Below, one piece after another: positions 668 through 41,201 of a DNA stretch of 64,000 nucleotides (its first letter is position 1; every line of letters starts with the position of its first letter). The position numbers and the translations under genes are program-made. The stretch is taken from assembly GCA_033964015.1 (NCBI GenBank), contig CM066912.1, forward strand, positions 9,478,015-9,542,014. Reading direction: 5' to 3'. Source of the DNA: Scolanthus callimorphus. Its lineage: Eukaryota; Cnidaria; Anthozoa; Actiniaria; Edwardsiidae. The notes below the pieces were generated by a model. It searched no databases. It saw nothing but the letters and a program-made list of their open reading frames with translations, and was not told the DNA's origin.

Positions 668-3600
668 CTAATATGTTTCGAAAAATTTATCCTTTTGTGT
701 TTTCTTAAAAATAGATAGTGATGATGATGACTTTATGTTAGCTTCAATAGTATTCCAAATTGTTGGGCCTTGAAAACGAATATTAAATTTACCATAGTTG
801 GTTCTCGCATAGGGAAGATAATAAGACTGTTTTGCTGAAAGCCTGGTATTGTAATTATGGACACTTGATACTCTAGTAAAAAAGGAATGAAATGTTGTAG
901 GCAGAAGATGGTTATAAAATTTGTACATAAAAATAGAAATATGAAATTTAACAAGGTCAAAAAACTTAATTACCCGAAGAGATTTGAACAAAGGACTTGA
1001 ATGCCTATCAAACGGAGAAAAAGTGATAATACGCATGGCTTTCTTTTGGAGTATAAATACTGGTTTAAGAGTTGTATCATATGTGTTTCCCCAAATGATA
1101 ATGCCATAAGTCAAGAAAGGATAGATTAAAGCGTAATATAATTTCACCAAAATACTTAAGTCAACAAAATGTCTTAACTTGCATAAAATCCCAATGCTTC
1201 TTCTTATTTTTTTACCTATAAATTCTACTTGTTTTTTCCAATTTAGGTGTGAGTCAATTAAAATGCCAAGGTACTTAATACAATATTCTCTTTTCAATTG
1301 CTTATTAGACAATAATAGATTAAAAGTAGAATCTTGTAATTTCTTTTGTGGTGGATGAAATAATACAAAGTTTGATTTCTCAATATTTAAAGAAAGTTTG
1401 TTAGCACATAGCCAAGTATGAATATTAATTAACTCAACATTTATGTTATTTTGAAGTAACTGGAGATTTTTATGCTCACAAAATAAATTTGCATCATCTG
1501 CAAATAAATGAAAATCAAACATTTTTGAGGAGTGATGAAAATCATTAATGTACAATAGAAACAATAGAGGGCCGAGGACAGATCCCTGTAGAATTCCACA
1601 TGACGTAGGACACCTTTCTGACGTTACATTATTTACTACAACAACTTGTTGTCGGTTATCAAGATATGATTTGAACCAATCATTTGCAGTTCCTCTTACA
1701 CCATAATGTTCTAACTTCTTTAACAATATTTTATGATTCACAGTATCAAATGCCTTACTAAAGTCAAGAAAAATTCCACAAGAATGTCTACGGTCCTCTA
1801 TTGATTTCTGTATTTTGTCGACTATAGATAATATAGCATGGTCAGTGTTATGTTTAGACCTAAATCCAAATTGCTTGTCAAATAAAGTTCCATGAATCTC
1901 CAAAAAATTAATTAATCTATTATACATGAGTTTCTCAAGCAATTTGTGAAAGACAGAAAGTAATGAGATAGGACGATAATTGGACAAACAAGTTTGGGAG
2001 CCTTTCTTGAAAACAGGTATGACATTAGCTAACTTTAGATCATTTGGTACAATGCCAGATGAAAATGAGGTATTATATAAAATCTCTAATGGTTTAGATA
2101 AAACTGATTTTAACAGTTTAAGGACATCTACCGATATACTGAAGGGCCCTGTTGCTTTTCCTGATTTTAATTGGAGATCTCATCTTCATTTCATGAGAGG
2201 TAGTTGAAAAAATAAAGAAACTACTACAAGGACGATCACGTAAATATGCCATGGGGGAGCTTTGTACTGTCGGGATTGCTTTAGCTAAGTCTTTACCTAT
2301 GCTAGAAAAATATGAGTTGAAGGTATTTGCAACTTCAACTGGTTCAGCAATATCATGATCATTAACTCTAAGTTTAATTTGTTTTGTGCTAGTCTGAGGT
2401 TTAAAATTTACTATTTGTTTAATTCCCTTCCATATTTTTTTACTATCACTAACATTTTCAAAAAATAATTATTGTAATATTCTTTCTTTGAGATTTTCAG
2501 GAGATGATTTAGCTTATTCCTATATAACTTAAATTTTGTGTGACTATATATAGATTTAGTCTTAATAAATTTCTTGTATAAATTATTTTTGATATAGATT
2601 GATTTCCTCATAGCAGGAGTAATCCAAGGCTTTGAAAGAAAATTACGCTCCTTTGTAGAAAGTTGCTTAACAGGAATATGCTTATCAATAATAACAGAAA
2701 TCGTATTATAGAAGGAGCTAAACATGGTGGAGGGATTATGATCTGAAAATACAGTTTGCCAGTTAATTGATTGAAATTCACTTAGCATATACTGTGGGTT
2801 AAACTTTGAATAGTCCCTTTTATACAACTTGACATTATTTGGTAGAGATGAAAATTTGTCAAAAATGAGAAAATTTGGCAGATGGTCTGTGATATCATAA
2901 ATTATATTACCACTGATTGTGAAGTGCTCTAATGAATTGAAAAATATGTTGTCGATAAGTGTTGCAGAATGATCTGTTACTCTTGTTGGCTGCAAAATCT
3001 GAGGCTGAAAGCAAAATGAACTAATGCTATTTAAAAAATCATCAGTTGGTTGATGATTTTCAACCTTGAGGAGGTCGAGGTTAAAATCACCTAAAATTGC
3101 ACAATACTTATTCCCTCGGTCAATTCTCTCTGCAGTAGAGCTCAAATATTCCAGAAAATTTTCCAAATTTCCATTTGGATGCCTATATATAATACCACAG
3201 AGAATATTTGAGCTATAGCTGTTTTGTATTTCAATCCAAAGAGCCTCATAATCAGCAGTTGTCGATGAAAGTTCAGATAGAACAGTAAAATGTAAACCGT
3301 TTTTGACATAGAAGCCAACACCCCCAGCATTAGAGAGAGTAGGCTGCGAAAAGAAACTATATCCAGGCAACTCTATATTGTTTAAAGGCTGTTCACCAAC
3401 CTTAATTTTGGTTTCAGTCAAACCAATGACTGAAAAAGGAAAATATAACTCAGATAACATGGTAGACAAGTCCTCAAAATTAGCTGATAAACTTCTAACA
3501 TTAGAATTTAGGATGGAAAATGCATGACTACTTGAAAAGCACTCAGAAATATCAGAATTACCATGAAAGTCGTGAAGAGTATAGTAGCTAAAATTACTGT

Positions 3601-3775
3601 CTGTTGGCATATTCAAATCAGCATCTAAATTAGTCAAATGGCACACATTGTCAACATAGCTGATGCTTAGCGATGGTAAAGCAGAGTATTCATGGAGTCG
3701 TTCTCTATCAGAGGAACAAACAATGCCATCAGGGCATTTAGGACAGTTACTCACAGACGTATCCTCGTGTTCCAT
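668..3775 (-). pseudogene. LINE ORF2: APE endonuclease and reverse transcriptase, frameshifted
   Basis: The frame opens at ATG 3775. It encodes an apurinic-type endonuclease with the expected motifs in order: LNSNVRSL, GLTETKI, GDFNLDLL and ITDHLP. A reverse transcriptase then follows, with NYRPISLLS, FLDFSKAFDTVNHKIL, GILQGSVLGPLLFLLYIND and the catalytic FADD, down to a stop near 668. The frames are not continuous. One base is lost in an A/T run near 2460, the frame changes again near 2165, and again near 1983 just before NYRPIS. Between these points the expected linker residues (for example VIPVFKKG) are readable in other frames. The order of domains and the FADD active site place it in the CR1/L2/Jockey group. 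Non-functional in this copy unless the frame changes are sequence errors. Confidence 0.85.
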
Positions 3776-3784
3776 TCCATTTCC

Positions 3785-4609
3785 TTACACTTCCTCAGTA
3801 TCAACCACACATGCGGAACCAGAACCATGTTGGTTGCCATGTTGATTCTTGATTTTTTTCACAAGATCATCCAGGCAGCTAATCAACATGGCTGGAGACT
3901 GCTCTGTTGCTCTCATGAAGACCCTCCCATTTGTGGTCCAAATATATTTGTAGCCCAAATCTTTCTTGACTTTCAGTGCCTGGTTAAACACCTCCCGGTT
4001 CACAGCAGTGAGGCTTTCAGAAATAAACATGTTATACTCATCTGGAAATCCCAGGTCTTTTGATGTCTTACCCTTGAGTTTCATTCTTGCCTGATAAAAT
4101 GCATCTTTCGTGTCACGCTTAATGAACTTTGCAATAATAGGCAATGGACCAGTTTTCTTGCTCTTATAGGACTTCGACGGGGGAAGGCGATGGCTGACAG
4201 ATATGTCATTATCGGTAATCTCAACACCCATAATACTTCCCAATTTCTTCACAATGTAATTTGTAGATTCTTCAGGGTACTCAGGTACACCCCGTATTTC
4301 AACACACTCCCTCCGCGTGTACTGCTCGAGGTCGTTGTTCGCCTTCGTCACAGACCTGACCGAAGTTTCCAGGCTTCCCAGAGCTTTCTTCAAAATGATG
4401 TTCTCATTTCTTAATTTCATATTTTCGCCCTCGCACACAGTGATTTTACTAAGCAAGTCATCATATTGCTTACTAGTGAAGTCTAGAAGATCCTTAGCCT
4501 CTTCTACCGATTTCTTTAACTGATCAAACGAGTTCTTGAAAGGAGCTAATTTTTGTTCCAATTTCTCCTCCAAAATGGTGGCCAGTTGTTCCTTGGTAAT
4601 AGCAGACAT
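3785..4609 (-). CDS. LINE ORF1 protein (coiled coil plus RRM-like nucleic-acid chaperone)
   Basis: An intact 274-codon reading frame; the first ATG is at 4609 and the frame is open a little further upstream only through non-ATG codons. Residues about 5-95 form a leucine- and glutamate-rich coiled coil, with charged heptads around KLEQKLAPF. Residues about 100-195 look like the Transposase_22/L1ORF1p fold: an ECVEIRGVPE strand, a SHRLPP segment, then IIAKFIKRDTKDAFY, which matches the RRM-like domain seen in L1 and in many cnidarian CR1/L2 elements. Such proteins trimerise and coat the element RNA. The stop lies 10 bases before the ORF2 ATG at 3775. It is intact while ORF2 is broken. Family assignment is by pattern recognition. 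Confidence 0.8.
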   Translation of the reverse strand: MSAITKEQLATILEEKLEQKLAPFKNSFDQLKKSVEEAKDLLDFTSKQYDDLLSKITVCEGENMKLRNENIILKKALGSLETSVRSVTKANNDLEQYTRRECVEIRGVPEYPEESTNYIVKKLGSIMGVEITDNDISVSHRLPPSKSYKSKKTGPLPIIAKFIKRDTKDAFYQARMKLKGKTSKDLGFPDEYNMFISESLTAVNREVFNQALKVKKDLGYKYIWTTNGRVFMRATEQSPAMLISCLDDLVKKIKNQHGNQHGSGSACVVDTEEV

Positions 4610-4740
4610 CCCAAAAGCGACAATAAACACTTATAGTATATCACAGACATATACAGATACAAAACTTAGACTTTTTAGGCCGAAAGGCTAGGCTATTTCG
4701 AGAGCTCGTAAGAACGCCGCCATCTTGGCCGCCGACCGCT

Positions 4741-7032: not shown

Positions 7033-7246
7033 TATATCTACAAGCGTCAATGTGTTATTCTGCTTTATTATATAAACATGGCCAATACTGTTTTTGTGAA
7101 AAAATGTTCGATTGGATGAATTTGCAGTTAGTGGGCATTATTGTAATTTTTCACGTGTGTGAATTACAATATTTCTCAGTGGCCAAAATCCTGATAAAGC
7201 ATTAAAGTTTATATAGTAAAGTTCTATATTCTTGATCTCACCATAC

Positions 7247-7428
7247 CTGGATGGTTCAGCTTATTAAGGACCGAAGCCTCCCAAACAACCTCATCTTTTG
7301 AAACATGTGGTTTAAATTGCTTTACAGCAACGACAATTCCACGGTAGTCCATCTTGATACATTCACCAAAACAGCCCCTTCCAATCATTACCTTGTCACT
7401 ACCATCCAAACTTCTTTTTTGGATTTCC
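7247..7428 (-). pseudogene. Protein kinase N-lobe exon (glycine loop, VAVK lysine)
   Basis: The minus strand encodes IGRGCFGE (glycine-rich loop), IVVAVKQF (the ATP-binding lysine in beta3) and a helix C segment WEASVLNKLNHPG with its conserved glutamate. A good polypyrimidine/TTGCAG acceptor lies at 7429-7435, and the donor is CCAG|GTATGG at 7246. Phase 1 joins it to the exon at 5814-5966. The frame is also open upstream through the acceptor into an L1-like reverse transcriptase, producing a long reading frame that joins RT and kinase; because the acceptor is intact, I read that as chance read-through. The exon itself is undamaged, but the downstream exons of this gene are broken. Confidence 0.75.
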
Positions 7429-7440
7429 CTGCAATAAAGC

Positions 7441-8846
7441 AAATTATCAAAAGCTTTTTGAAAGTCAATAAACAACGCAAGCCCGGGAATATCCTCTTTT
7501 TCAGTTACATAAAAAAGATCATTTATCAATCGAATGTTTTCCCCAATATATCTTCCTTTGATGTATCCAGTCTGATTTGGCTGTATAATTTGAGGTAAAA
7601 CTGCTTTTATTCTTTTAGCAATGGCTGCAGTTGCAATTTTATAATCTGTATTCAGTAACGTAATTGGTCTCCAGTTTTCTAGTTTCATAAGAGCTTTATT
7701 TTTCTTTGGTATAAGGGAGATAATACCTCTTCTTTGTTCTATAGACATTTTCCCACTCACGAAAGCCCAGTTAAAGCTTTCAACTAAACAATCACCAATG
7801 AGATCCCAGAAATGTTTATAAAACTCGTAGGAAAGTCCGTCAGTACCTGGGGATTTATCCTTTTGAGTGTTTTTCAGCACAGCTAAACATTCGTCAGAAG
7901 TTAACAATCCTTCACAACTTTTAGACTGACCGTCATCTAATACTTTAATACTTCCACCGCCTGTGAAAGGTTCCAGATTTTCTGCAAAATCCTCCGCGTT
8001 TAAAGTAGAAGAATATAACTCTTCGTAAAAGTTCTGTTGAGCTGACAAAATATCTTCTGCATTTTTAATAACTTTATCATCTATTTCTAATCGTTGAATG
8101 TGTTTTACATTATAATTATGTTTTTCTAAATTGAAAAAGTATCGCGAGCTTTTCTCTCCAAATTCATACCATCTCACCTTGCTTCTTATTCTACATCCTT
8201 GAGTCTTCTCTTCGAGGATGTTGTCTAACTCTTTTTATGCTTATAATATTCTGACAAATTATCTTTCGTTGGAGCCTGCTCCGTGATTCTCCTCAACTGA
8301 TTTACTTTGATTATCAAATCAAACTCTTTGTGCCTGCGCTGGTTCATTTTCCTTTTGCTAAATCGGAATACAAACGACCTAATTTCCATTTTCACCATCC
8401 CATTTAATACCACTGTCTAAATTTGAGTCATCATTATGATATTTTTCAATGAATTTGTGAATTTCTTTCCTAAGAGAATCAACGAAAGTTTCATCGCTAA
8501 GCAGCCCGTTATTAAATTTCCAAACACCTGGTCCGCGTTTGGCTGACTTCCCAAGAGATATTTCAAATGTAACAGCAGAATGGTCAGGAGACGGTGAATC
8601 TTTTATTGCGCACTCTGTTACCATATTCAATAAATCCATCGAGATAAGCCAGCAATCAATCCTGCTTTGTTGCGTGAAAGATTTGTTACGCCAAGTGAAA
8701 GAAAGGGTATCAGGATACTTTTCACGAAAAACATCCATAAGCTCAAAAGAGTTCTTAAAACCGCCTATGCTCGATGTATCGATGCCTGCAGGTGCAGTGC
8801 CGAGTATAAATTTGGAAATGCGGGCGAATGATTTGACCTCCGACTA
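7441..8846 (-). mobile_element. L1/Tx1-like LINE fragment (endonuclease C-terminus and RT N-terminus)
   Basis: Three frames in succession carry LINE ORF2 remains. At 8379-8738 the C-terminal part of an APE endonuclease is seen (FTWRNKSFTQQSRIDCWLIS, then PSPDHSAVTFE). At about 8225-8413 there is linker, and from 8177 down a reverse transcriptase N-terminus with SPGTDGLSYEFYKHFWDLIG, LIPKKNKALMKLENWRPITL and LFIDFQKAFD. The fragment stops after the first catalytic aspartate block, so the YADD box and the 3' end are missing; the 5' end of the endonuclease is missing too. No tail or target duplication is visible, so one side probably results from a deletion. It sits in the kinase intron, in the same orientation as the gene, ending only about 15-20 bases from the acceptor. 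Confidence 0.8.
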
Positions 8847-24751: not shown

Positions 24752-24830
24752 TGAACCTAGGGGTCTCTGTAAAATGCAGACCGGACCTCGGCGGACCGGA
24801 CCTCCGCGGACCTCGCGGACCGGATCTCGG

Positions 24831-25557
24831 CACAGGCTTACCATTCTGGGGGTGTGTGTAATGTGACTTCTTCTGTGTCATACATCTGCTCTTGGGGAGT
24901 TTGTAATGTGACTCCCCCTGTGTCATACATCGGCTCTTGGGGAGTTTGTAATGTGACTCCCTCTGTATTGATCAACGATCGGCTCACAAGTTGATAGTTA
25001 AAAGCATCTCGTATTATCATCTCTTGAAACAGAAAAGTTCTATAATAAAGGTTATAGTAAACGATAATTGTATTGTGTTTGTCCTCATATCGAAAACAGG
25101 GGGAAATATAAAGGTTTTCGGGTAGTTTATGAGAGTTTTTGGGGGGTGGGTAGCGAGGGGAGAGAGGAGAGAAGGAGTAAAGGCCAGCAGCTCTCACGCA
25201 GAACCAAATCACCATCACGTCGATCAAGCGCTCCAAATTCTTATTCACAGAAAATCTCACGAAACACTTACAACAGCTCGATCGAGTGATCATTGATCTA
25301 TGTCCCAGCCGAGTTTCAGGCTCGTAAATAAATTATGTGTACCCGAAAAGTGCACATTTTTCGGTCACCTCCGCCAAAACTCCACGCCGGCAAACGATAG
25401 AGGAACGCCGTGAAGACCCTTGGAATGTAGCGTCAATCAACGCATAGACCCTTGGAATGTAGCGTCAATCAACGCATGGCTGGTCGGGCTGGTCACGTCA
25501 CGCTGCACTTCCGCTACAAAACGGAAGAGAATGCGCCAGCCAATCAACGAGCTGGCT
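24831..25557. repeat. Left terminal inverted repeat of the P/PIF1 element
   Basis: Matches 34711-35436 in reverse. The outer end has about 2.5 tandem units of 47 bases containing GTAATGTGACTCCC (24850-24965). Nearer the gene is a direct pair of 32-base units (25414-25445 and 25446-25477, each with CCTTGGAATGTAGCGTCAAT). A CACGTCAC motif resembling a cAMP-response element lies at about 25494-25501. Repeated subterminal sites are typical transposase-binding sites, and the innermost part must supply the promoter. Confidence 0.92.
25414..25477. promoter_or_regulatory. Subterminal 32-bp direct pair, candidate transposase-binding and promoter region
   Basis: Two exact tandem 32-base units lie within 175-240 bases of the transposase ATG, followed by a CACGTCAC motif. 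The mirror copy lies at 34791-34854 before the helicase gene, so the two genes share the same upstream sequence. Role inferred from position and repetition only. Confidence 0.4.
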
Positions 25558-25649
25558 TTCTCCAGTGCACAAAATTTAAAATCAGCTGTTGTGGTTCGCG
25601 ATGCAATGTTGGTAGACTCGAAGAGAAACTTTCTACAAAACAAGACAAT

Positions 25650-25699
25650 ATGGAGTCCATGCGGAAGACTGCGACCTCCCAAAACGCGAAGCTTTACTG
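25650..25699 (+). CDS. P-type transposase, exon 1
   Basis: ATG at 25650 starts 16 codons and two bases, ending at donor TACTG|GTAAGT. The frame is open further upstream to another ATG at 25476 inside the terminal repeat, which would add 58 residues including a short CCGSRC cluster; no THAP zinc finger is formed by that stretch. I chose 25650 because it lies outside the repeat, but the longer start cannot be excluded. All nine exons together give 2502 coding bases (833 residues plus stop), within the usual size of P-element and THAP9 transposases. Confidence 0.7.
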
Positions 25700-25772
25700 G
25701 TAAGTGCATCTTTGTTATATTTTGCAAAAGAACCTCGATATTTTGGTTACAAACGTCTCAATAAATACACAG

Positions 25773-26756
25773 GTTCTCGCAGAAGTACGAGCTGTCGTTG
25801 GGAAAGACGTTAAGTCTAGATGAAGTATTGGACGACTTTGAAAATGAGAAAGAGAATTTGAATTTTAAATTGGAGAAGAAGGACGTCAGATCACTAGTCA
25901 ACCACGTTGTCGATAATGCAAAATCAGTCAAACTCAAGCGCAACGGCAAGCGAATAATCTCATTCATGGACATTGGAAAGCGTGCTCGGTATACTAGTGG
26001 AGAAGAATGGAAGCGAATGCAAACTGGCGTTTTATACAGTGGTTGGCTTTTGCGAAGCAAAACTGAAAATCCTCCGGTTTTGTCGTTTACGAGGTTAACT
26101 GGGGTTGCTTTCGACGAGAACGAGCTAGCTATCCAGCTGTCAATTGACCCTACTACGCTCGCCTTCGAACTGAAAACATCACAGGGAACCATTAACGGGA
26201 ACGATTTAGTACGAGTGTCACCAGCGAATGTCAATATATTGTTCGTGCTTGAGTACCTTTCCAGGTTCACTATTTGCTGTGGCGTACAGGGAAACGAGTT
26301 TAAGGCCTCCGTTGTACGGACAACGGAGGATACGTTATGTCATACTGTCAACGTAAATGGTAGACGTCACTTCATTTCTAAAAAGTGCAGCTTGTTAGTG
26401 CTAGGTTACGAGGGGAGGTGTACCGAGTGCATATATTTAAATAAACGCCTTTTATGTCGAAAGCAAGAAATTAATCTGAAGTTCACCAAGCATACTCTCC
26501 TCGGGAAGACGGAGATGGAGCAGAAGGTAATTCAGGTACAGAGAGAAAAAAGAAATGCAGAAAAACGTGCAGATTACTGGAGACAGAAATATGAAAACGA
26601 GAGTTTCGCTGTCACGGATGAGGATCACGAAGATTTTGCAACTCTACTAGGAGGAGTCGATCAGACGAAAATGAATGATGACATGCGACTACTCTTGCAA
26701 CAGCAACACATGGCACTCAAAAGAAAGTCAAAGTATGGATACAGGTGGCATCCAAA
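25773..26756 (+). CDS. P-type transposase, exon 2
   Basis: This is the largest exon, 984 bases from an ACAG acceptor to donor CCAAA|GTAAGT. It holds the N-terminal half: an acidic stretch, a KRIISFMDIGKRARY segment, and a putative zinc-binding pair of cysteines near GRCTEC followed by LNKRLLCRKQE. A charged helical stretch around QREKRNAEKRADYWRQK probably acts in dimerisation, as the leucine-zipper/coiled region does in P transposase. It ends in KYGYRWHPK, which with the next exon forms the conserved start of the RNase H-like part (G-RW-P-IIRLCL). No THAP-type C2CH finger is seen, so DNA recognition must use another fold. Confidence 0.85.
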
Positions 26757-27336
26757 GTAAGTAAACTGAAGATGCATTTTTTCGCAGCCAACACTGCCCC
26801 TCCATACCCTAACATTTTCTATTGTTTAGGCTTTGTACTTGGGCACCAATGCTGTGCCTGCAGTGTGCTTAGCCTAGACTAGATGTCACATCATAGGGGT
26901 AAAATCGAAAGTTCCCGACGAAAGCCCCCCCCCCCCCCCCCTCACTCTCCCCCGGGTTCTGACTCAGAACCAACAAATGAGAGATAACATGAGATGTCCC
27001 GCTCCTAGGAAAAAGGTGGATACCATTCTACACCCCTTAGACGAAGATAAACTGGGCTCAAATGATATAATTAAATTCCACCTCCCTTTATTAATGGCGG
27101 TTGCCGAATTTTTGACATCATCCTGGGCCCTATATCTCGCAAATGCATTCTTTTTATCTTTCCATCTGAATTCAGTGATATCTCAGGAAATAAGTCTCTT
27201 CAGGCATTGTGAGAACAAATTTTAAGTTCCTCCATTGGGAATCTAATGAGTACAGAATTATTTTCTGTCATGATTATATACAGTATGGACAAATCAATGT
27301 AGAAACTGAGACTGCCTGTTATTATTGTACATGTAG

Positions 27337-27432
27337 GATTATCAGGCTCTGTTTGGATATATATACAACATCATCCAAGGCTTTTGACACCTTGAAGGAG
27401 CATCTCATCCTTCCCAGCAAGAGGCTTATCAG
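27337..27432 (+). CDS. P-type transposase, exon 3
   Basis: Ninety-six bases between acceptor ACATGTAG and donor ATCAG|GTATGT read IIRLCLDIYTTSSKAF, then LILPSKRLIR. This matches the family's helix with the LPS-R-L segment directly before the catalytic core. Phases on both sides (AA|G and AG|A) restore lysine and arginine. Confidence 0.88.
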
Positions 27433-27688
27433 GTATGTGTATTGCAGATCTGCAAGATAAATAAAATATATAGCAAAGAGCAAGATAAAAAGTAAAATTC
27501 CCTGAACTGAATTTGATACTGCGAATTTTAGTGCCGTGATCAGAATATGTCTAGCATCAGCGATGCATGTCTGAATAGATGACAGTGATATTGTAAATCA
27601 CACAATTAAAGTGCAGGCATGATGGATCAGTGATGCAATGGATTAGCACCTGTCCATCAGTTTTATACATTAGAATTGTTACTTTTAG

Positions 27689-27827
27689 ATACTACAAGAA
27701 TTCAGTTCCTTGTTCTTCGGGATGGAATGCAGAAGTTATGGCATGGTGTCAAAGAGAGGCCACCAAATTGAAGATGGAAGGAAAGGATTTATGGGGAGGA
27801 CTCGTGTTTGATGAAATGACTATACAG
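27689..27827 (+). CDS. P-type transposase, exon 4 (first catalytic Asp)
   Basis: Reads YYKNSVPCSSGWNAEV and ends in GGLVFDEMTIQ. FDEM at about residues 417-420 corresponds to the first catalytic aspartate in the RNase H-like domain of P/THAP9 transposases. Acceptor CTTTTAG and donor ACAG|GTATAT are canonical, joining in phase 0. Confidence 0.9.
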
Positions 27828-28257
27828 GTATATCTGCAGGAAAACAATATTAATCAACAGATTCCAGACTTTATAAAATTCCATCCTTTTAGTACTTGTC
27901 AATTGTTAGCTCAAAACCCTATAATATTGCTTCCATACCTTTCAATTTGTGTTTTAAATAGCTCTCAAAAATTTATTTTCTTATCAGTCCCTATTCACCA
28001 GGTAAGGCTTCCCTATAGGTAGCTGCCGTGCTCATATTTCCAGCCTCGTTTCCATGCAATATTCCGCCATTTTTGAAAAAGGTCTATAAATGCTATATCA
28101 AGTGAGGCTCTGATTTTGGTAAGCGAGTTGTACATGTAAAACCACAACCAATCCAAATGTTTTAAGAGAAAAAGGATTCTTGTGATAATCTTGTGGCTAA
28201 TCCATAATTTTGATAAATTGACATAATTAGTGAATGGGTGTTCAATATTCTTAACAG

Positions 28258-28354
28258 GAAGATTTAGAGTTTGTCAGAGTTGGTGGGCAGAAGAGACTCC
28301 TTGGAGCTGTCAACCTTGGAAAAAGCTATGAGGACTCGAGACTTTTGACTGAAG
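28258..28354 (+). CDS. P-type transposase, exon 5
   Basis: Reads EDLEFVRVGGQKRLLGAVNL then GKSYED, the strand following the DEM motif in the family. Acceptor TTAACAG and donor GAAG|GTTAGA are canonical; phase 1. Confidence 0.88.
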
Positions 28355-28529
28355 GTTAGAATCTGTTTGTTGGCACAACCTTTATATTGCTAGCGCTGAA
28401 CAAAATGGTGTACTTATTTTTTTACTAGCAGGTTATCTTGCCCATTAGCTCCCCCCTCAGTATGAGGACCATCAATAGTGGTATTTTGTTCCTTTAAAAT
28501 AAATGATATAATTTCACAAATCTTTTCAG

Positions 28530-28695
28530 GGACGAATGAACCTCAACTTGCTTCAAAAGTTATGCAGTTTGCATTGGTGTCAGACAATGGCTTCCGTTTC
28601 AATTTGGCTCATTTCCCAGTTAAAACCATGCCTGCTGTAACACTACATGAAAAATTCTGGGAAGGTATAGAGCACTGCGAGAGAATTGGATTTCG
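28530..28695 (+). CDS. P-type transposase, exon 6
   Basis: Reads ASKVMQFALVSDNGFRFNLA, then HFPVKTMPAVTLHEKFW, ending GFR. In the family this segment (strand, then a short helix carrying a FPV or YP motif) leads to the second catalytic aspartate. Acceptor TTTTCAG and donor TTTCG|GTAAGA; phase 2. Confidence 0.87.
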
Positions 28696-29230
28696 GTAAG
28701 ATAATAATAAAGCACTCCTAATTTAAAATCATCTTGTGGAATTCAACAAGGAACACTGCCTCATGGAGATAAAGTTTCAACCTTCCATGAAAAATTATTA
28801 TTTAAAACTGTGTTTAAGAGTACTATGCCTTTTACCTCCCGGTCTAATTCAAATCTCCCTAGGGTGGTAAATAGGGTTGAATCAATTTTACACACAAAAA
28901 GTTTCATCATGATAGGATTCAGCTCCCTAGTCTGAAATGTCTCATGAGATGTCTAATGTTTCTGTTGACCAAGATTCAAAATGAATTTCCAAACCTTAAA
29001 TATTTTAAGATTTATTAGCAGGGGCGGCATAGCCGGGGGGGGGGGGGGGGGGGGGGGGGGCACATTTCTCAAAGTTTTCATACATTTTCACTAAACTCAG
29101 CCCCCACCTTAATTGCAATACAATCAATTACTAATGAGCCCCCACACTTTGAAAACTGTTCCGCCGTTCCTGATTTAGGGCTGCAAGTATCAAAGGATTT
29201 AAATCTAATATGATGCCAATGTCTATACAG

Positions 29231-29378
29231 AATATATTGGCTTGTTTGTGATGGAGGGGAACCCAACAGATCTTTCATGAAGATGCTCTTCCCATATGGT
29301 TCCGATCCTGAAGCTTCAGAATTTGTAGCAGAAAATCTACATACGGGAGGAAGGATTGCTGTCATGTCTGACTCAAAG
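29231..29378 (+). CDS. P-type transposase, exon 7 (second catalytic Asp)
   Basis: Reads IYWLVCDGGEPNRSFMKM, with CDGG at about residue 518 matching the second catalytic aspartate, then LFPYGSDPEASEF and GGRIAVMSDSK. The acceptor is CTATACAG. The donor is AAG|GCGAGT: a GC donor instead of GT, required for the next exon to join in frame as SDSK-HCFKKIRN. Rare GC-AG introns occur in animals, so this is acceptable, but it is the weakest splice site of the gene. Confidence 0.83.
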
Positions 29379-29630
29379 GCGAGTTTTTATAGCCAAAATA
29401 CAAACATGTTGTGGTACAATCTGTATGTGATACATTGTAGTAAATTCTTTTTTGATGTTTAAAACACAAGCAGAGCCTTGCAAACACAACTAATGGATTT
29501 TTGGAAATATTTGTTATCCCTCATTTTTAGACTTCTTTTTGTACCCCAAGCCAGGGTAACTTGTCTAAGCCACTTAAGTTTGTCTGGTTTGAGAGTTCAG
29601 TAAAATGAACATCATGTTTTCATTTTTCAG

Positions 29631-29885
29631 CATTGTTTCAAGAAAATAAGAAATCACCTGGAGAAAAGCACCATGGCTGAGAACCCCACAAGAAAGCTCA
29701 CAATCAATAACAACAGAATTGTATTCGAATTTTGGAAACGAGCTTTCAAGTGGGACCAGGAAAATCATTCCTTTCCCCTTCATGAAAAGCTAACAGAAGC
29801 ACATTTTGAGCTGGATGCCAGGTCCCGAATGCGAAACCATTTGGCTGAAGATGTCCTTGACAAAAGGATGTTACATCTTATGCAG
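29631..29885 (+). CDS. P-type transposase, exon 8 (DxxHxxKxxRN region)
   Basis: Begins HCFKKIRNHLEKS, the family's D..H..KNIRN helix when joined to the previous exon. It continues with a strand-loop RKLTINNNRIVFEFWKRAF and a helical stretch KLTEAHFELDARSRMRN, which belongs to the GTP-binding insertion region of P transposase. Acceptor TTTTCAG, donor ATGCAG|GTAAAT, phase 0. Confidence 0.88.
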
Positions 29886-30578
29886 GTAAATGAAATCAAA
29901 CATCCAGGCTTGAGTTATATGAGCTAAAAGGTGACTCAGTCACACAGCAAATAGGGGGAGGTCAAATTGAATTCTTTAAAGCAAATAGCATATTCATTGT
30001 ATCATTCATAACGTCTTGCGAAATGCCATAGTTAAGTGATAAGCAGCAGACACATCCCCCAAAAATATGAAGTTGGTGAATTTAAAATACAAGTTAGACC
30101 TACAAGTGTTATTTCAATGGAGCCCCTCAATCCCTATAGGCTGTATGGAGAGATCACTTCAACTTTTACATACCTGATTTGTACTGCATACTAAATCATG
30201 CATTGAATTGGTCAATCAATAAAAACAGCAACTTCAAGCACCATTGTAATCAAACTGAAATGACAACAAAGCAGCATCAACTGGAAGTGCCAAAATTAGA
30301 AACTGTTATCAAGTAGGCAACATTTTGAAAATGTATGATGATTGCGGGTAGCTAATAGATTTGAATGTCTCTACCAGTATCACAAGCTGTTTACATCAGT
30401 CAACTTACCATAAATGGTGGAACTTCAAACAAAACCTTAAATGATAAAAATATAAATATTGGTGGTTAAGCTTTACGAATCGACCCATTGCTGCAATACA
30501 AAATGGCTGTGAATCATGCCCTGATTTAATACTGTCATTGTTCAAATAATTGAATGGTGGTTTCTTTTTCCATCATAG

Positions 30579-31145
30579 GAGTATCAACAACATCTCTGCA
30601 ATTCTGGCCAAGTTGGAGAGGCGAGTGCTTTGAATGAGCCCATAAATCTTCTGGAATACACAAGCCAGTTAATAGACCTCTTTTCAAGAAAGGACTCATT
30701 ACTTAGCACTGAAGATCCTAGGTTGAAGAAAGCAAAGTTGTTTCTCCAATACTTACAAGAATGGAAAAGCAATGCCGCAGTTGCTAAAGAATTCCTTTCA
30801 AACCAGCTTTGGTTTGATCTGAGAGCAATGATTATCGGTCTCCATAAAGCTGTAGAGATAAAAACGAAGAAGTTCCCTGGTGTTGGCATTAAACCAGTCA
30901 TTGTAAATCAGGATGTAATAGAAAACACATTCTGCCAAGTTCGTGGGTCAAATGGGCAAAATAGTCACCCAAAGTACTATATGTACTGTTCCACAATCAC
31001 ATCGATAAATGTTGGTCAGTCAGTGGTGAGTAGAAAGAGTAACACCAATGGGAACAGAGATACTCTACCTCGGGCAGGACTCCCTAAGGAACATCCATTC
31101 TCAACAAAGAACAGAAAATTCAAGCGCAAGTTGCCTACCACCTAA
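30579..31145 (+). CDS. P-type transposase, exon 9 (catalytic Glu, C-terminus)
   Basis: Reads from EYQQHL to a TAA stop at 31145. It contains helical sequence ending the insertion domain and then GVGIKPVIVNQDVIENTF with CQVRG. QDxxEN is the conserved C-terminal block with the catalytic glutamate (about residue 760) in P/THAP9 transposases. The end is basic (KNRKFKRKLP), possibly nuclear-localising. No internal stop or frameshift interrupts any of the nine exons, so the enzyme could be active. Confidence 0.9.
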   Translation, partial: EYQQHLCNSGQVGEASALNEPINLLEYTSQLIDLFSRKDSLLSTEDPRLKKAKLFLQYLQEWKSNAAVAKEFLSNQLWFDLRAMIIGLHKAVEIKTKKFPGVGIKPVIVNQDVIENTFCQVRGSNGQNSHPKYYMYCSTITSINVGQSVVSRKSNTNGNRDTLPRAGLPKEHPFSTKNRKFKRKLPTT

Positions 31146-31412
31146 AAGGGATGTTACAGTACAGTATATAAGCTGACTCTCAATGAAGGTGACAGAGGAA
31201 GGTATTTAATGTTTGAAATCCTGGGGATGTTTACTTTTAGTAGTTTGGAGAGGCCAAAATTTGCGAAGTTACTTTAAGAGTATGATAATATGACCTTATT
31301 TATTTTTACTGATGTATTTTGGAGGGCCGTTACATTCATGATTCAGTGAGTAAATAGCCTATATTAAATTGTACATAAAATTATTTAGGAAATGATGGTA
31401 CCTTAACAGTAG
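31146..31412. terminator. Shared 3' region between convergent transposase and helicase genes
   Basis: This 267-base gap lies between the two stop codons. An AATAAA on the minus strand (31304-31299) can serve the helicase gene. For the transposase only weaker variants (ATAAAA near 31374) are seen. The two 3' ends may overlap. Confidence 0.45.
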
Positions 31413-31904
31413 CTACTGACGCTGTACTCTTCGGATACGGAATCCCAACCCCCCTCTTTCAAGAGGGAGTGCCTGTAATTCCGTCTCTAAGCTCCAAGGA
31501 TAAGGGATATTTGGCTGAGATAAGATAGCTTGTGCAAGATCTTTCCCCAAAAGGGCTTTGTTATGAGATGACTTTGCAGGTAGTCCATAGCCTTTCTGAA
31601 GCAGCAGTAGCTCTTTACGAGTGTACAACTGGGCTAAAATGGCATCTCCAAATTTGGTCAAGAGCGCTTTCAGCAAGTTATGAGACCTCTCTTTGTTAAG
31701 AGAATTGTCATCCACTATGTCACTATATGGGACCTTTGCTTCGTTTCGCACCTTTTTCTCTTTGCGTGCGAGCACCATTTGCCTATGTGCCATTGCCTTT
31801 TTAACCTGCCACTTGGATCGAAAGTCCTTGACAAACTGATTGGCACCAACATTGATGTAACGCTTTATCAGCTCAGTGTACATAATTTCAACCAGCAAAA
31901 CATC
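31413..31904 (-). CDS. PIF1-family helicase, exon 2 (C-terminus)
   Basis: This exon starts after acceptor ATTCCACAG and joins exon 1 in phase 0 (SVE-DVLLVE). It encodes 163 residues ending at the stop at 31413-31415. The part is rich in lysine and arginine (for example MVLARKEKKVRNEAK) and finishes with a LPLERGGLGFRIRRVQ tail. I do not recognise a named domain; a nucleic-acid-binding or partner-binding extension is plausible. The frame is intact throughout. Confidence 0.8.
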   Translation of the reverse strand, partial: DVLLVEIMYTELIKRYINVGANQFVKDFRSKWQVKKAMAHRQMVLARKEKKVRNEAKVPYSDIVDDNSLNKERSHNLLKALLTKFGDAILAQLYTRKELLLLQKGYGLPAKSSHNKALLGKDLAQAILSQPNIPYPWSLETELQALPLERGGLGFRIRRVQRQ

Positions 31905-32276
31905 CTGTGGAATTAATAAAAACAATCAAACAAAGCAAGTTGCTATTATGCATCAGTCAATTCCCATTCAGGGTGTCACACCAAGTTTGTTACAGGGGGT
32001 GGGGTAGGACATGACTCCCAATTCCATTCGAGGTCAGTATTGTTTTTGCCTAGTTCAGTAAAAAAGATTTTGTTAGGGGCATGTAGATGGCAAACCCAAA
32101 ACACCAATATGTCATTTTGAACATCACATTTTTCTTAATTTTGAATTCGGAATATTTTATAGCTAGGGAACTCCAAGCCACAGATAGGCACGATGAATCC
32201 AGCACGATAAAGAATATAATATTAATGTAAGACAAGAATATAATATTAATATCATGTTCAAAGCTTCATATCTCAC

Positions 32277-34625
32277 CTCCACTGAGTCTGTTGGGAACAT
32301 TATTTTCCATCGAGAGCTCAGAACATCATCATTCACTAGACTGTCTTCTACAATCTCTATCAGATTCTCACCATGAATCTTAAACATCTGTGCATTTAGA
32401 AGTTCTATGCGCCTTTGTTCGAGTTCTAAAACAAACTCAAAGTATTCATCAGAAACATGAATGAGTCCATGTGTTCTATATTGTCTAACTTCTGTAACAT
32501 TCAGTGTTTGTGGGCATGTTGTCAGAGAACATAAAATCTCATATGGTATAACAATGACCTCTTCTAGCAGCTGCGCCTTTCTTAAATTTTGCTTGACGTG
32601 AAGCAATGTGTTATTGTCTTCCGAATTCATGTTGTCTCTTACATACTTCCTGGCCTTCTTCAATATCTTACTTATTGCCCAGGCCCCAACAAATCTGATC
32701 TTGCCCTTTCCAGCACTGTCCATTTCCCTGACTTTCATGGTTACAATGTCATTCCTCAGTCTTTCTTTGCATGCTTGTGCTAAAACATCCAAAACATTAT
32801 GGTATACTCCCACAACAACGTCAAAGCCAACACTGATTTGGCCAGGTGTTAATTCTTGAACACTGAAGCAGAACTTTAACCAGCCTCTATACTCTGCAGA
32901 TTTGGAAATGTCAGCAACCTGGTGGTAAAATGCTGTAAGTTCCTTCATAGATAATGCAATATTTTGAAGGTTGGCCTTCAAATGCTGCCTCAAAAGTAGG
33001 TAAGTTTTGAACCAAACAATTTGTAGGAGACTGGAAAATTTATCAACATTTTGCAAAGCACTGTCAACAGCATCGTTTTTTAGAGTCACAAATTCTGTGA
33101 CAGTCCCAAGGACAGCTGGTCGAGAGGATTCCAAAAATTGGTTCACAGAAAAATCTTCAGGGAGGTTGCTGAGAACATGTTCTTCCTCATCTATAGCTTC
33201 TAGATACTCTTCCATATTAACCCTCAGATCTTGCCCATTATCATCATGCCCATTTTCATTCCCCTCAAACATTCCCTCAGCAATCTCCTGTATCAGCTCA
33301 TCTGATAACTCCTCCTGTACTGGTACACACTGGAATTCTAAACAGGGCACTTCCCTCCAGCACGGGCAATTTTCAAGGCTACAGCATGGCAAGCCTCGGA
33401 GCTCTTGAAGCTGGCTATCTCTGTTCTGGACATGCATTGCTTTAAAACCCAGGACTTGGAGGTTGTCTATTGTGCGGACCCTTGAGAGTGCGGTGTATAG
33501 AAGCCCACCTGTAAATTCGTAATATGAATGAATGATAGCCTTTTTTAGCGTAAGCCCTTGTGACTTGTGGACTGTTGCAGCCCAGTACAACTTCAGTGGT
33601 ATCTGATATCTAGAGCCTATGGGATGTCCTTCCTTATCTACATTTGTCCAGGTAACATTGGTAATTGTATGTTCAGCACCATCCACTTCGATTACAGCTG
33701 ATTTATCATCAAGCTTTCGCACGAAAAAGGCCCTTGTTCCATTGTGGATTCTATCGTTGACGTTATATAACACCATAACTGGGGCCCCAGGTTTGAATTT
33801 ACAAACATCAGGCGCGGGACACTGCATTCTACGAATGTCGCCTGTATCAGTAGCCCGGAATAATGCTCGTTCTCCGGAAAACTCCGACAAACGAGCAGTA
33901 TTGTGGCCATCCACCATGGAATTGGTAAAATAAAGGTGCACCGTGTCGTCATCTTCATTTATTGGCCTCGATAGGCTCTGAAGGTCCCGCGTGGTTTCCT
34001 CTTCACACCTCCCGAGTCGTATTCTTTTCAATATATCCAGGAGCTTCCTCTCGTCGGCCTTTTGTCGATGCACTACGGTCAACTGGACTGTGTGGGGGAA
34101 GAGATACCCGAACAAAGGGGAAAGATACATGGGGACGCCATCGTCGAAGCGATCTCTAACGGGCTTTAACTGTAGCCAGTCACCCACAAGGATTACCTGT
34201 ATTCCACCAAAAGGCCTCCGATCGTTTCGCACCTTGGAGCAAATGGCGTGAAGTAACTCCACGAGGCGAGCACTTCCCATGGAACATTCGTCCCATAATA
34301 CACATTTCAATTTCAAGATTCTTTTCTCCACAGCTACATTCTCGCAGGCGTTCTTGACGATCGCATCGAACGGTCCTTGCGCGGTGCGGATCCCGAAGTA
34401 ACTGTGGACAGTGACTGGACGGTGAAACAAATTCTCGTCACCTTTAAACACCTCACATGCGATTCCCGTGGAACAGACGACTTGGACGTTCTTCCCCTTA
34501 TTTTTACTGATACTAGAGACAACTATCGATTTTCCAGTGCCTGCTTCGCCGTAAATTGCAAAATTATGTCCAGAATTCGCAAGATGCACGCAGTCTTGTT
34601 GTTCGCTAGTCAATTTTATAGACAT
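32277..34625 (-). CDS. PIF1-family SF1B DNA helicase, exon 1
   Basis: ATG at 34625 (an upstream in-frame TAA excludes a longer start) opens 783 codons. Helicase motifs appear in order: TSEQQDCV; Walker A GEAGTGKS at residues 26-33; Walker B DECSM at about 112; GDWLQLKPV at about 148; VVHRQ at 184; the PIF1-type NGTRAFFVR at about 295; HKSQGLTL at 353; and YTALSRV at 377. These make a complete ATP-driven 5'-3' helicase of the PIF1/RecD group. A cysteine-rich patch (CCSLENCPCW onwards) follows at 414-433, then about 350 residues of acidic and helical sequence I do not recognise. The donor is GTGGAG|GTGAGA at 32276. It starts 86 bases inside the right terminal repeat. No Rep-type nuclease is fused, so it is not a Helitron protein. 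Confidence 0.93.
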
Positions 34626-34710
34626 TTGCTCGCGAATCACATGTTACAACTGAAACGCACGTTTCGCGGGTTTCTAATATAAACAAACAGGGCAAAGTGT
34701 ATGTTTTGAC

Positions 34711-35436
34711 AGCCAGCTCGTTGATTGGCTGGCGCATTCTCTTCCGTTTTGTAGCGGAAGTGCAGCGTGACGTGACCAGCCCGACCAGCCATGCGTTGAT
34801 TGACGCTACATTCCAAGGGTCTATGCGTTGATTGACGCTACATTCCAAGGGTCTTCACGGCGTTCCTCTATCGTTTGCCGGCGTGGAGTTTTGGCGGAGG
34901 TGACCGAAAAATGTGCACTTTTCGGGTACACATAATTTATTTACGAGCCTGAAACTCGGCTGGGACATAGATCAATGATCACTCGATCGAGCTGTTGTAA
35001 GTGTTTCGTGAGATTTTCTGTGAATAAGAATTTGGAGCGCTTGATCGACGTGATGGTGATTTGGTTCTGCGTGAGAGCTGCTGGCCTTTACTCCTTCTCT
35101 CCTCTCTCCCCTCGCTACCCACCCCCCAAAAACTCTCATAAACTACCCGAAAACTTTATATTTCCCCCTGTTTTCGATATGAGGACAAACACAATACAAT
35201 TATCGTTTACTATAACCTTTATTATAGAACTTTTCTGTTTCAAGAGATGATAATACGAGATGCTTTTAACTATCAACTTGTGAGCCGATCGTTGATCAAT
35301 ACAGAGGGAGTCACATTACAAACTCCCCAAGAGCCGATGTATGACACAGGGGGAGTCACATTACAAACTCCCCAAGAGCAGATGTATGACACAGAAGAAG
35401 TCACATTACACACACCCCCAGAATGGTAAGCCTGTG
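34711..35436. repeat. Right terminal inverted repeat of the P/PIF1 element
   Basis: Reverse complement of 24831-25557, 726 bases. It carries the mirrored 32-base pair (34791-34822 and 34823-34854), the GTGACGTG motif near 34767, and the outer tandem units. It lies directly upstream of the helicase gene and must contain its promoter. Confidence 0.92.
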
Positions 35437-35444
35437 ATCTCGGC

Positions 35445-35719
35445 GGGCGAATTTATTTTTTACGCCCACTTCAAGATGGCGGCTAGCTAGTATAAATATT
35501 CATTATGATTCACATATTCTCGTTCTACGAGTGAATTAAAAGGAGGTTGTTGACCTGCGAACTCTCTCGTAGCTCATGTGTAAGATGTTGGGTTATGAAT
35601 AGGTAATTTAGACAGGGTTGAGGGTTCGCACCACCATGAATACTTTTTCCTTTTTTCTCAATAATTTGCCTGAAAAATTTCTAAGTGCCATGAAGTGGGC
35701 GTAAATAAAAAAATCGCCC
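35445..35719. mobile_element. MITE with 5-bp target duplication inside the Mutator-like arm
   Basis: Begins GGGCGAATTTATTTTTTACG and ends with the near reverse complement ending TCGCCC, with flanking TCGGC on both sides (35440-35444 and 35720-35724). The duplicated bases overlap the right target duplication of the P/PIF1 element, so the two insertions abut. The interior is non-coding. Confidence 0.8.
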
Positions 35720-39520: not shown

Positions 39521-39878
39521 TATTTACTTCCGCTGTAAAACTGGTCATGGGTTGCCTGTGCGACGACGGAACCACGGACGGAAGTAAATAAACCGGAAGT
39601 CCATCACAAAACAGGTCGATGCATATACACTTTTGTGTTGTTTCCTTTTCTCCTGCATGTAGCTATGGGGCTCCGCTATTAAGAATGTTAATTAAGAACG
39701 CTTTTAGCTCAGCGAAGCGATACAAATTATTAAAGGCGGAGCGAATGGACACATGCTAAACATATATCAGCCGAACATATGCTAAAAATTCAGTTGGACT
39801 ATATTTCAGTCGCAATATTAACTCCAGGTAAAGGATTAGGTGAAGGAAAGTTTACATTTCTCTTCTACGACATCCATA

Positions 39879-41201
39879 ATGGCAGCATCCTTACGTGCAC
39901 CGTTTCGCATCGCCACTCTGTCCCACTGCAGCGACTTCTTAAGGATAACATGGCAGGATGGTGCAAAAAGTGCGTTTCCAAACGTCTGGCTACGTGGATG
40001 TGTGCGAGACCCTACATATTTCGATCAATACAGCTGGACATACCCTCAACATGACTATGCTCGCTTTGTGGCTACCGAGTCGCAGATTGTTGGCGCCGAA
40101 AACAGAGATGGGAGCGAAGACGTTGACGTCAAGTGGAACGACCATCGCAGCATTTTCAACTCCTCTTGGCTTCGAGCACAAGACATGAAAATCAACGCCC
40201 ATCTCCTTAAGAAATGGGAAATAATAAACTGGGATGCCAGCGCTAAATTTCCTATTTACCAGTACTCAGAGCGAAAGGAAAAGTTTGAGACCTGGTTCAC
40301 CGACCTCGTAACATATGGTGTGGCATTTTTCGAGGGAGTACCTCCAAGCCATGAAGGTCTAGAAGGGATTCTGCATTGTGTTGGTCAACCAAAGCAACGC
40401 AGGCACCCAATAAACACTATAGTAATAGCGCCTGACAAGACCAAGACAGAGAAAATAGATCAAGATGCCTACGGGGCAGCCAAGCACCCCATCCATATTG
40501 ACACCGCCTATTATGATGCGATCAACACGCTGTCCTGCATAATGGCCACTTATTACTCTGCTCCAGTGCAAGATACTTACAACTACTGGATTGACAGTGT
40601 TGCGGTCATCAAAGAGCTGCGCCGGGAAGAGCCTGAAGCGTATCACCTACTCAGTACAATACCAGTTCGCTTCGCAAGAAGAAGGCTGACTACTCGAGAC
40701 GAGGTAGAGCCTGGAATGGAGTATATCTACCACAACGAAATCCACAACGAGAAGCCTATTATTTGCAGTGATCCTAGAGAAAAGCGTCACCCGTCAGTAC
40801 TGATCTCAAACAAGCACGGTGGAATGGAACTGAGCAAATTCAAGGATAATGCAACAATGAAAAGGCTTTACGAAGCCTATGTCTTGCTTCTGTCCAAGCT
40901 CGATGATCCTAAAAATCATCAAAGGTTTTTGCTGAACCCAGGAAGAGCCGTCATTTTCAACAACCACCGCGTTACCCATGGTCGAGATGTCACTCATCCT
41001 GAGACTGAACGTAATGTTCGGGTTGGATTTCTAGGCGCAGATATGTGGAGCACAAGGTGGCGCATGTTGCTTGGGGAGAAATCAGGCCTAGCGAATGAAT
41101 GGTTGTATGGATGTACCGACGAACAGTTGGAAGTACTTTCAAGCAGATTGGATAATAGTGAAACCGTTCAGAAGCCAATAAAAGCAATGCAGTCAGCCTA
41201 A
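39879..41201 (+). CDS. Gamma-butyrobetaine/trimethyllysine dioxygenase-like enzyme, intronless
   Basis: A 440-residue single-exon frame with the layout of carnitine-pathway Fe(II)/2-oxoglutarate dioxygenases (TauD/TfdA fold). The N-terminal small domain (about residues 15-60) has ITWQDGAKSAFPNVWLRGC, resembling the DUF971 domain. The catalytic core has WFTDLVTYGVAFFEGVP, the metal-binding HID (206-208, in PIHIDTAYYD), a distal histidine in NNHRVTHGRD (367) and a downstream arginine in RNVRVGF for 2-oxoglutarate. All metal ligands are present. BBOX1-type proteins are normally about 390 residues and encoded in several exons, so this may be a retrocopy or a lineage-specific intronless gene. ATG 39879 is the first ATG in frame. 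Which substrate is used cannot be told. Confidence 0.85.
   Translation: MAASLRAPFRIATLSHCSDFLRITWQDGAKSAFPNVWLRGCVRDPTYFDQYSWTYPQHDYARFVATESQIVGAENRDGSEDVDVKWNDHRSIFNSSWLRAQDMKINAHLLKKWEIINWDASAKFPIYQYSERKEKFETWFTDLVTYGVAFFEGVPPSHEGLEGILHCVGQPKQRRHPINTIVIAPDKTKTEKIDQDAYGAAKHPIHIDTAYYDAINTLSCIMATYYSAPVQDTYNYWIDSVAVIKELRREEPEAYHLLSTIPVRFARRRLTTRDEVEPGMEYIYHNEIHNEKPIICSDPREKRHPSVLISNKHGGMELSKFKDNATMKRLYEAYVLLLSKLDDPKNHQRFLLNPGRAVIFNNHRVTHGRDVTHPETERNVRVGFLGADMWSTRWRMLLGEKSGLANEWLYGCTDEQLEVLSSRLDNSETVQKPIKAMQSA

Follow-up and report, generated by a model that had tools for sequence, protein, structure and literature searches.

A P-superfamily DNA transposon of Scolanthus callimorphus with a PIF1 helicase gene that is very probably an inherited part of its lineage

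We analysed a 64,000-nucleotide stretch of the genome of the sea anemone Scolanthus callimorphus, hereafter the window, which is part of contig C2 (CM066912.1, positions 9,478,015 to 9,542,014) of an assembly of 597 Mb in 302 contigs (GCA_033964015.1). Positions 24831-35436 of the window are occupied by a DNA transposon of 10,606 bp that holds two convergent genes, one for a P-superfamily transposase and one for a PIF1 helicase. Its left and right terminal inverted repeats (TIRs), 727 and 726 bp long, are near-identical and differ by one inserted base, its termini read CACAGG...CCTGTG, and ATCTCGG lies on either flank.

The transposase gene spans 25650-31145 on the plus strand, where predicted splice sites join nine exons into an open frame of 833 amino acids with eight introns, one of them of the GC-AG type. 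The frame contains the blocks FDEM, CDGG, SDSKH and QDVIEN at residues 417, 517, 557 and 756, and Pfam assigns it the N-terminal TNP-like RNase H domain (PF21787; E = 9e-14, score 52.4 bits, cut-off 24.6); the C-terminal TNP-like RNase H domain (PF21789) is matched weakly and below the cut-off (E = 0.042). The closest named relative is P0121 from Actinostola, with 60% identity over 58% of the query. Residues D418, D518, D558 and E760 are retained in all three of the sister families described below (F173, F174 and F184) and, by alignment, also in P0121, and we infer from sequence which of the four make up the active site. An original prediction, made from the letters of this DNA alone, had called the transposase P/THAP9-type. 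Its nine exons, P-superfamily membership and four blocks hold good, but the THAP9-type label was rejected: Pfam found no THAP domain at E<=1, and the six frames of the element contain no unbroken C2CH pattern, which an intron-split finger would escape. Pfam likewise gave no match to a GTP-binding insertion domain at E<=1, and no Kolobok or Academ transposase profile was among its results, neither of the two having been compared directly.

The helicase gene runs towards the transposase gene from the other side and consists of two exons, with predicted splice sites, that encode 946 amino acids. This is the convergent PIF1 helicase of 946 residues that had been predicted, and it matches the Pfam PIF1 domain (PF05970) at 1.3e-25. 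The PIF1/SF1B motifs that we take to be I, II, III, V and VI are readable in it. In an AlphaFold2 model of the 783 residues encoded by exon 1 (mean pLDDT 82.0), the PIF1 core is followed by a helical part from about residue 470. The best match of this model among solved structures is cellular PIF1 (E = 7.8e-30, TMq up to 0.47, TMt up to 0.83), with a weaker predicted resemblance to the Helitron transposase Helraiser (7lcc; E = 4.9e-20, TMq 0.39); a profile search of the Protein Data Bank (PDB) with the helicase also matched 7lcc, at E = 6e-36. Modelled alone, the helical part (mean pLDDT 88.2) gave no convincing match among solved folds, and no relatives of the C-terminal region were found in viral contigs. 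Neither the helicase nor the transposase has a Rep/HUH domain by Pfam at E<=1. The closest named relative of the helicase is P0002 from Oculina patagonica, with 42% identity over 77% of the query. A distant relative, P0016, shows 26% identity over 98% of the query, the C-terminal tail included, and points to a helicase family of greater age and breadth than the elements read here. By eye, P0016 ends in a cysteine-rich, PHD-like stretch.

A second full-length copy of the element was found on contig C13, as an equal-scoring match (94.4 bits) in a genome search for the PIF1 family. It is 99.78% identical to the element in the window and has exactly equal boundaries, which bears out the predicted 10.6-kb unit with near-identical inverted ends of 727 and 726 bp. 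The two copies differ in 23 alignment columns, 7 of which fall within one poly-G tract; the helicase of the C13 copy has four substitutions and an open frame. The flanks of the C13 copy are unrelated to those in the window and carry GTTTGGT on both sides. The target duplication had been predicted as 7 or 8 bp, and this second duplication, next to the same terminus, fixes the length at 7 bp and led us to reject 8 bp. Since the C13 copy combines the same boundaries with other flanks and a 7-bp duplication of its own, both genes moved as a single unit. Judged on these sequences, the identity of the element as a member of the P superfamily and its mobility as a unit are next to certain.

The genome search scored 150 PIF1 matches of 345 candidates, and we read 20 PIF1 regions with 10 kb around them, taking a single match at each score between the highest and 101.4 bits. 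This sample is not random: the scores 103.8 (on C13), 103.1, 102.7 and 102 were omitted from the range, and because the window and C13 copies themselves score 94.4 bits and most lower rows were unread, other members may have escaped notice. Three of the 20 regions (L173, L174 and L184, giving families F173, F174 and F184) match both the helicase core and the C-terminal region of the window helicase, and in each a P transposase lies downstream, convergent as in the window. The other 17 showed no match to the C-terminal query or to a P transposase at E<=1e-3, one of them (L172) showing no match at all. A P transposase is therefore present in 3/3 regions with the C-terminal region (E<=1e-3) versus 0/17 without it (Fisher exact p = 0.0009, for a non-random sample). 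In 2.5-kb slices around four lower-scoring PIF1 matches, only the core was matched. We assumed the other PIF1 genes of the genome to be of Helitron type or host genes.

The three sister families are well diverged from the element in the window, with anchored identities of 34.9% (F173), 35.1% (F174) and 36.0% (F184) for the helicase and of 41.7%, 39.7% and 38.6%, respectively, for the transposase. In all three, helicase motifs I, II, V and VI are recognisable and the matched PIF1 cores are without a stop, and the C-terminal region is conserved alongside the core. Counting the window, the gene pair is present in all four families whose helicase has the C-terminal region of this clade, and inverted ends are present in three of the four. 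Recurrence of both proteins together, which had been proposed as a check on the original prediction, was thus found within this genome; matching inverted ends around the pair, the other half of that check, were found in F173 and F184 and not in F174. In a FastTree phylogeny of the helicase core, the window helicase groups with the database proteins P0001-P0007 (support 0.99), and those of F173, F174 and F184 group with P0008-P0015 and P0122 (support 1.00). The node uniting these two halves has a support of only 0.70. Those further PIF1 genes of this genome that entered the tree fall elsewhere.

We also compared the ends of these elements across the window and 41 stretches of the genome (340,740 bases). 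The F173 element on contig C10 (C10:2210507-2226273) spans 15,767 bp between 646-bp ends that are 99.8% identical and share the termini CACAGG...CCTGTG, and a second F173 copy, on C15, is flanked on both sides by a duplicated ATTTGTT; of this copy the two ends and 3.6 kb on the helicase side were read. Copies that keep the ends and lack the helicase had been named as evidence against the original prediction; the sequences compared contain only one additional bearer of any of these ends, a 2.7-kb derivative on C11 (L185:4586-7288) with F173-type ends and ATCTTAC (7 bp) on both sides, which matches neither the transposase nor the helicase of the clade and adjoins another PIF1-type helicase gene. 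This non-autonomous derivative is evidence of mobilisation in trans. F184 has 237-bp ends that are 97.9% identical and a span of about 14.3 kb. Duplications of 7 bp were found in four of the six insertions checked (window, C13, C15 and L185), or four of the five with a CACAGG terminus. Apart from that terminus, which is common to the window element and F173, the ends of the window element, F173 and F184 are not alike beyond chance, and the repeat finder detected no tandem repeats in those of F173 or F184. Just outside the C15 copy, in its flank (L200:1-447), we noted by eye a short open frame with THAP-like cysteines.

On these sequences, we consider it very probable that the PIF1 helicase is an inherited part of a P-superfamily lineage. 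Several observations weigh against a helicase that is inherited and useful to the element. Ordinary P elements manage without one. PIF1 genes also exist elsewhere in the genome, including what is probably that of the host itself (best match 214.7 bits), so that an extra PIF1 borne by the element is not obviously needed. The genome may also hold relatives that keep these ends but lack the helicase. No long inverted pair was found in 22 kb of F174, F184 has no recognisable target duplication, and the F173 copy on C10 has flanks unlike each other and no duplication; for this last case, ectopic recombination of the kind described for Galileo, between copies, would be an explanation. One region without a C-terminal match, L189, shows a weak helicase match for about 112 residues past the core, to residue 554. 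The genes of the sister families may not be intact: F174 and F184 have an altered helicase motif III, the C-terminal part of the F184 helicase contains one stop, and a stop occurs in two of the F173 transposase matches, perhaps in intron sequence. In the C13 copy, single-base differences in short homopolymer runs break the transposase frame while the helicase is open; these breaks may be real or may be assembly errors.

With the vertebrate P-like/THAP9 and Drosophila P elements, the present elements have in common the TNP-like RNase H domain, terminal inverted repeats and introns in the transposase gene, and they differ in that no THAP domain was found, in a length of 10-16 kb and in a second gene for a PIF1 helicase. 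Their target duplications are 7 bp and their ends 237-727 bp long, compared with the 8 bp and the 31 or 13 bp given for Drosophila and zebrafish P elements in the available text of a review of P transposition (PMC7776569). In these respects the window element resembles Galileo, a P-superfamily element of Drosophila with long inverted ends, 7-bp duplications and, as in the window element, tandem repeats inside the ends (PMC2775673, available sections); F173 shares the long ends and the 7-bp duplication with Galileo but not, as far as found, the tandem repeats. The helicase named in those sections is a novel Drosophila gene at the inversion breakpoint under study and lies outside the element (PMC2775673).

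Among the matches listed in a literature search of titles and abstracts, with Repbase outside the search, there was no P-superfamily element with a PIF1 helicase. The original prediction had placed PIF1 helicases in transposons mainly in Helitrons, which proved incomplete as an account of helicases in transposons, since helicase-bearing cut-and-paste transposons are already known in KolobokH and AcademH. The Helitron helicase is of PIF1 type, and Helitrons resemble the present elements in having a helicase inside a transposon. As far as described in the accessible part of the source, however, it belongs to a single RepHel protein with Rep (PMC6431247), whereas here the helicase has a separate gene next to a DDE-type transposase and between inverted ends. 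KolobokH and Kolobok-1_CCri are DDD/E transposons with an accessory helicase, encoded in Kolobok-1_CCri on the complementary strand as here, but this is a RecQ helicase paired with a Kolobok transposase, and KolobokH is described from fungi only in the portion of the source available (PMC9587614). AcademH, a helicase-encoding DNA transposon of animals and fungi, differs in its 9- or 10-bp duplications and belongs to another superfamily, according to the sections at hand (PMC10045372). RAG-like transposons, too, are described with two convergent genes per transposon (PMC7204232, in part); their proteins differ, and the layout alone is alike. The P lineage thus adds a further type of transposase paired with a helicase, after Kolobok and Academ, which suggests repeated selection for unwinding in large TIR transposons. 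In Hydra, PIF1-like genes are over-represented along with transposases (PMC7642931, available text), and elements such as these may explain part of that expansion.

Our overall interpretation, which we somewhat favour, is that the element in the window is a young autonomous member of a P lineage with PIF1 as an inherited second gene, gap repair being the leading but not the sole role of the helicase. The proposal that the helicase is a second mobility gene is thereby upheld as far as an inherited second gene goes, given the pair in four of four clade families; what the helicase does we infer. In the mechanism we propose, the transposase would bind the long ends and cut with D418, D518 and E760, and excision would leave a double-strand gap of 10-16 kb at the donor site. 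PIF1 from the element itself would then drive D-loop or bubble migration together with a host polymerase, and the whole long element would be copied back from the sister chromatid or homologue, a step that would turn cut-and-paste into a net gain of full-length copies. Through its C-terminal region, the helicase would be linked with the transposase or the machinery of repair. The analogy is with Drosophila, where, according to the available text of one paper, excision of a 14-kb P element serves as a gap-repair assay, PIF1 is needed for efficient repair of the 14-kb P{wa} gap if POL32 is absent, a finding for which Kocak 2019 is cited, and PIF1 is tied to bubble migration in break-induced replication (PMC8951532). 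By this analogy a role in gap repair is plausible, if somewhat short of an even chance. More doubtful, but conceivable, is that the lineage kept PIF1 and its C-terminal module through much of animal history and gained copies by gap repair synthesis, permitting lengths several times those of ordinary P elements. P elements are the textbook case of cut-and-paste transposition, and gap repair by the host usually gets the credit for the gain in copies of such elements; a P lineage with a helicase of the kind that the host uses for long gap-repair synthesis would make copy gain directly testable.

Accessory genes in transposons can have anti-silencing or damage-signalling roles, and the helicase might counter host silencing or DNA damage signalling, outside the DNA transactions of transposition. 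A C-terminal region in which modelling recognised no fold would be compatible with such a role, which we nevertheless regard as improbable, as each of the four families has recognisable motifs I, II, V and VI, which point to enzymatic unwinding, even with motif III altered in two. A function in transposition itself, in which the helicase would open or remodel the ends, clear the strand-transfer complex of transposase or aid target capture, has more in its favour: the gene pair has been retained through deep divergence, the ends are unusually long, and the C-terminal region, conserved with the core, could be a transposase-binding module. It nonetheless seems rather unlikely, given that P transposition is described without a transposon helicase; in the available text of the review, a helicase is named twice, each time the host BLM in repair (PMC7776569).

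The PIF1-type helicase, as in Helitrons, and the profile match to 7lcc would also agree with an element that replicates, the helicase driving strand displacement and the transposase only resolving the ends. We give this little credence: neither protein has a Rep/HUH domain, the model fits cellular PIF1 better than 7lcc, and inverted ends together with 7-bp duplications in four copies indicate staggered integration of the DDE type. In a genome so rich in PIF1 genes, a helicase of host or Helitron origin could, finally, have been captured once as a passenger, or have arrived by nested insertion. Such an origin is scarcely credible, since three diverged families have the pair in the same orientation and the core tree sets the helicase apart from the other PIF1 genes compared; one-off capture was rejected on these grounds. 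A Helitron inserted in a P element was likewise rejected, as Pfam found no Rep and no second pair of long inverted ends surrounds the helicase.

The coordinates of the features of the element are collected in the table.

Table. Coordinates of the element and its features within the window
Feature	Position	Strand
Left target site duplication, ATCTCGG	24824..24830	.
Left terminal inverted repeat, 727 bp, beginning CACAGGCTTACC	24831..25557	+
45-bp unit, 2.7 tandem copies, close to the left terminus	24845..24966	+
32-bp unit, two tandem copies, toward the inner edge of the left TIR	25414..25477	+
Transposase exon 1	25650..25699	+
Transposase exon 2	25773..26756	+
Transposase exon 3	27337..27432	+
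Transposase exon 4, holds D418 (FDEM)	27689..27827	+
Transposase exon 5	28258..28354	+
Transposase exon 6	28530..28695	+
Transposase exon 7, holds D518 (CDGG) and D558; donor is GC	29231..29378	+
Transposase exon 8	29631..29885	+
Transposase exon 9, holds E760 (QDVIEN), includes the stop codon	30579..31145	+
Helicase exon 2: C-terminal 163 residues and stop codon	31413..31904	-
Helicase exon 1: PIF1 core (residues 1 to about 400) with the larger part of the C-terminal region specific to the clade	32277..34625	-
Right terminal inverted repeat, 726 bp	34711..35436	-
32-bp unit, two tandem copies, toward the inner edge of the right TIR	34791..34854	-
45-bp unit, 2.7 tandem copies, near the right terminus	35301..35422	-
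Right target site duplication, ATCTCGG	35437..35443	.

Resolution of G-quadruplexes (G4) at the ends had been suggested as one task of the helicase, and this idea failed: none of the three TIRs scanned has a canonical G4 motif, and G4-forming ends were rejected. Among the positions listed, canonical G4 motifs occur in the element only in a poly-C tract near 26939-26953 and a poly-G tract from 29035. Two introns of the transposase gene hold runs of poly-C (26925-26941) and poly-G (29035-29060), the latter seven bases shorter in the C13 copy.

Two bases past the right target duplication begins a 275-bp sequence (35445-35719) with 29-bp inverted arms, which has the look of a small inverted-repeat element with the P element inserted at its edge. 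Elsewhere in the window, open frames at 668-4630 and 7224-8177 on the minus strand resemble a LINE-type reverse transcriptase and endonuclease. On the plus strand, an uninterrupted frame of 453 amino acids (39840-41201) resembles an enzyme of the gamma-butyrobetaine hydroxylase type, and two overlapping frames of 542 and 350 amino acids (58069-60721) resemble a tnp2-type transposase.

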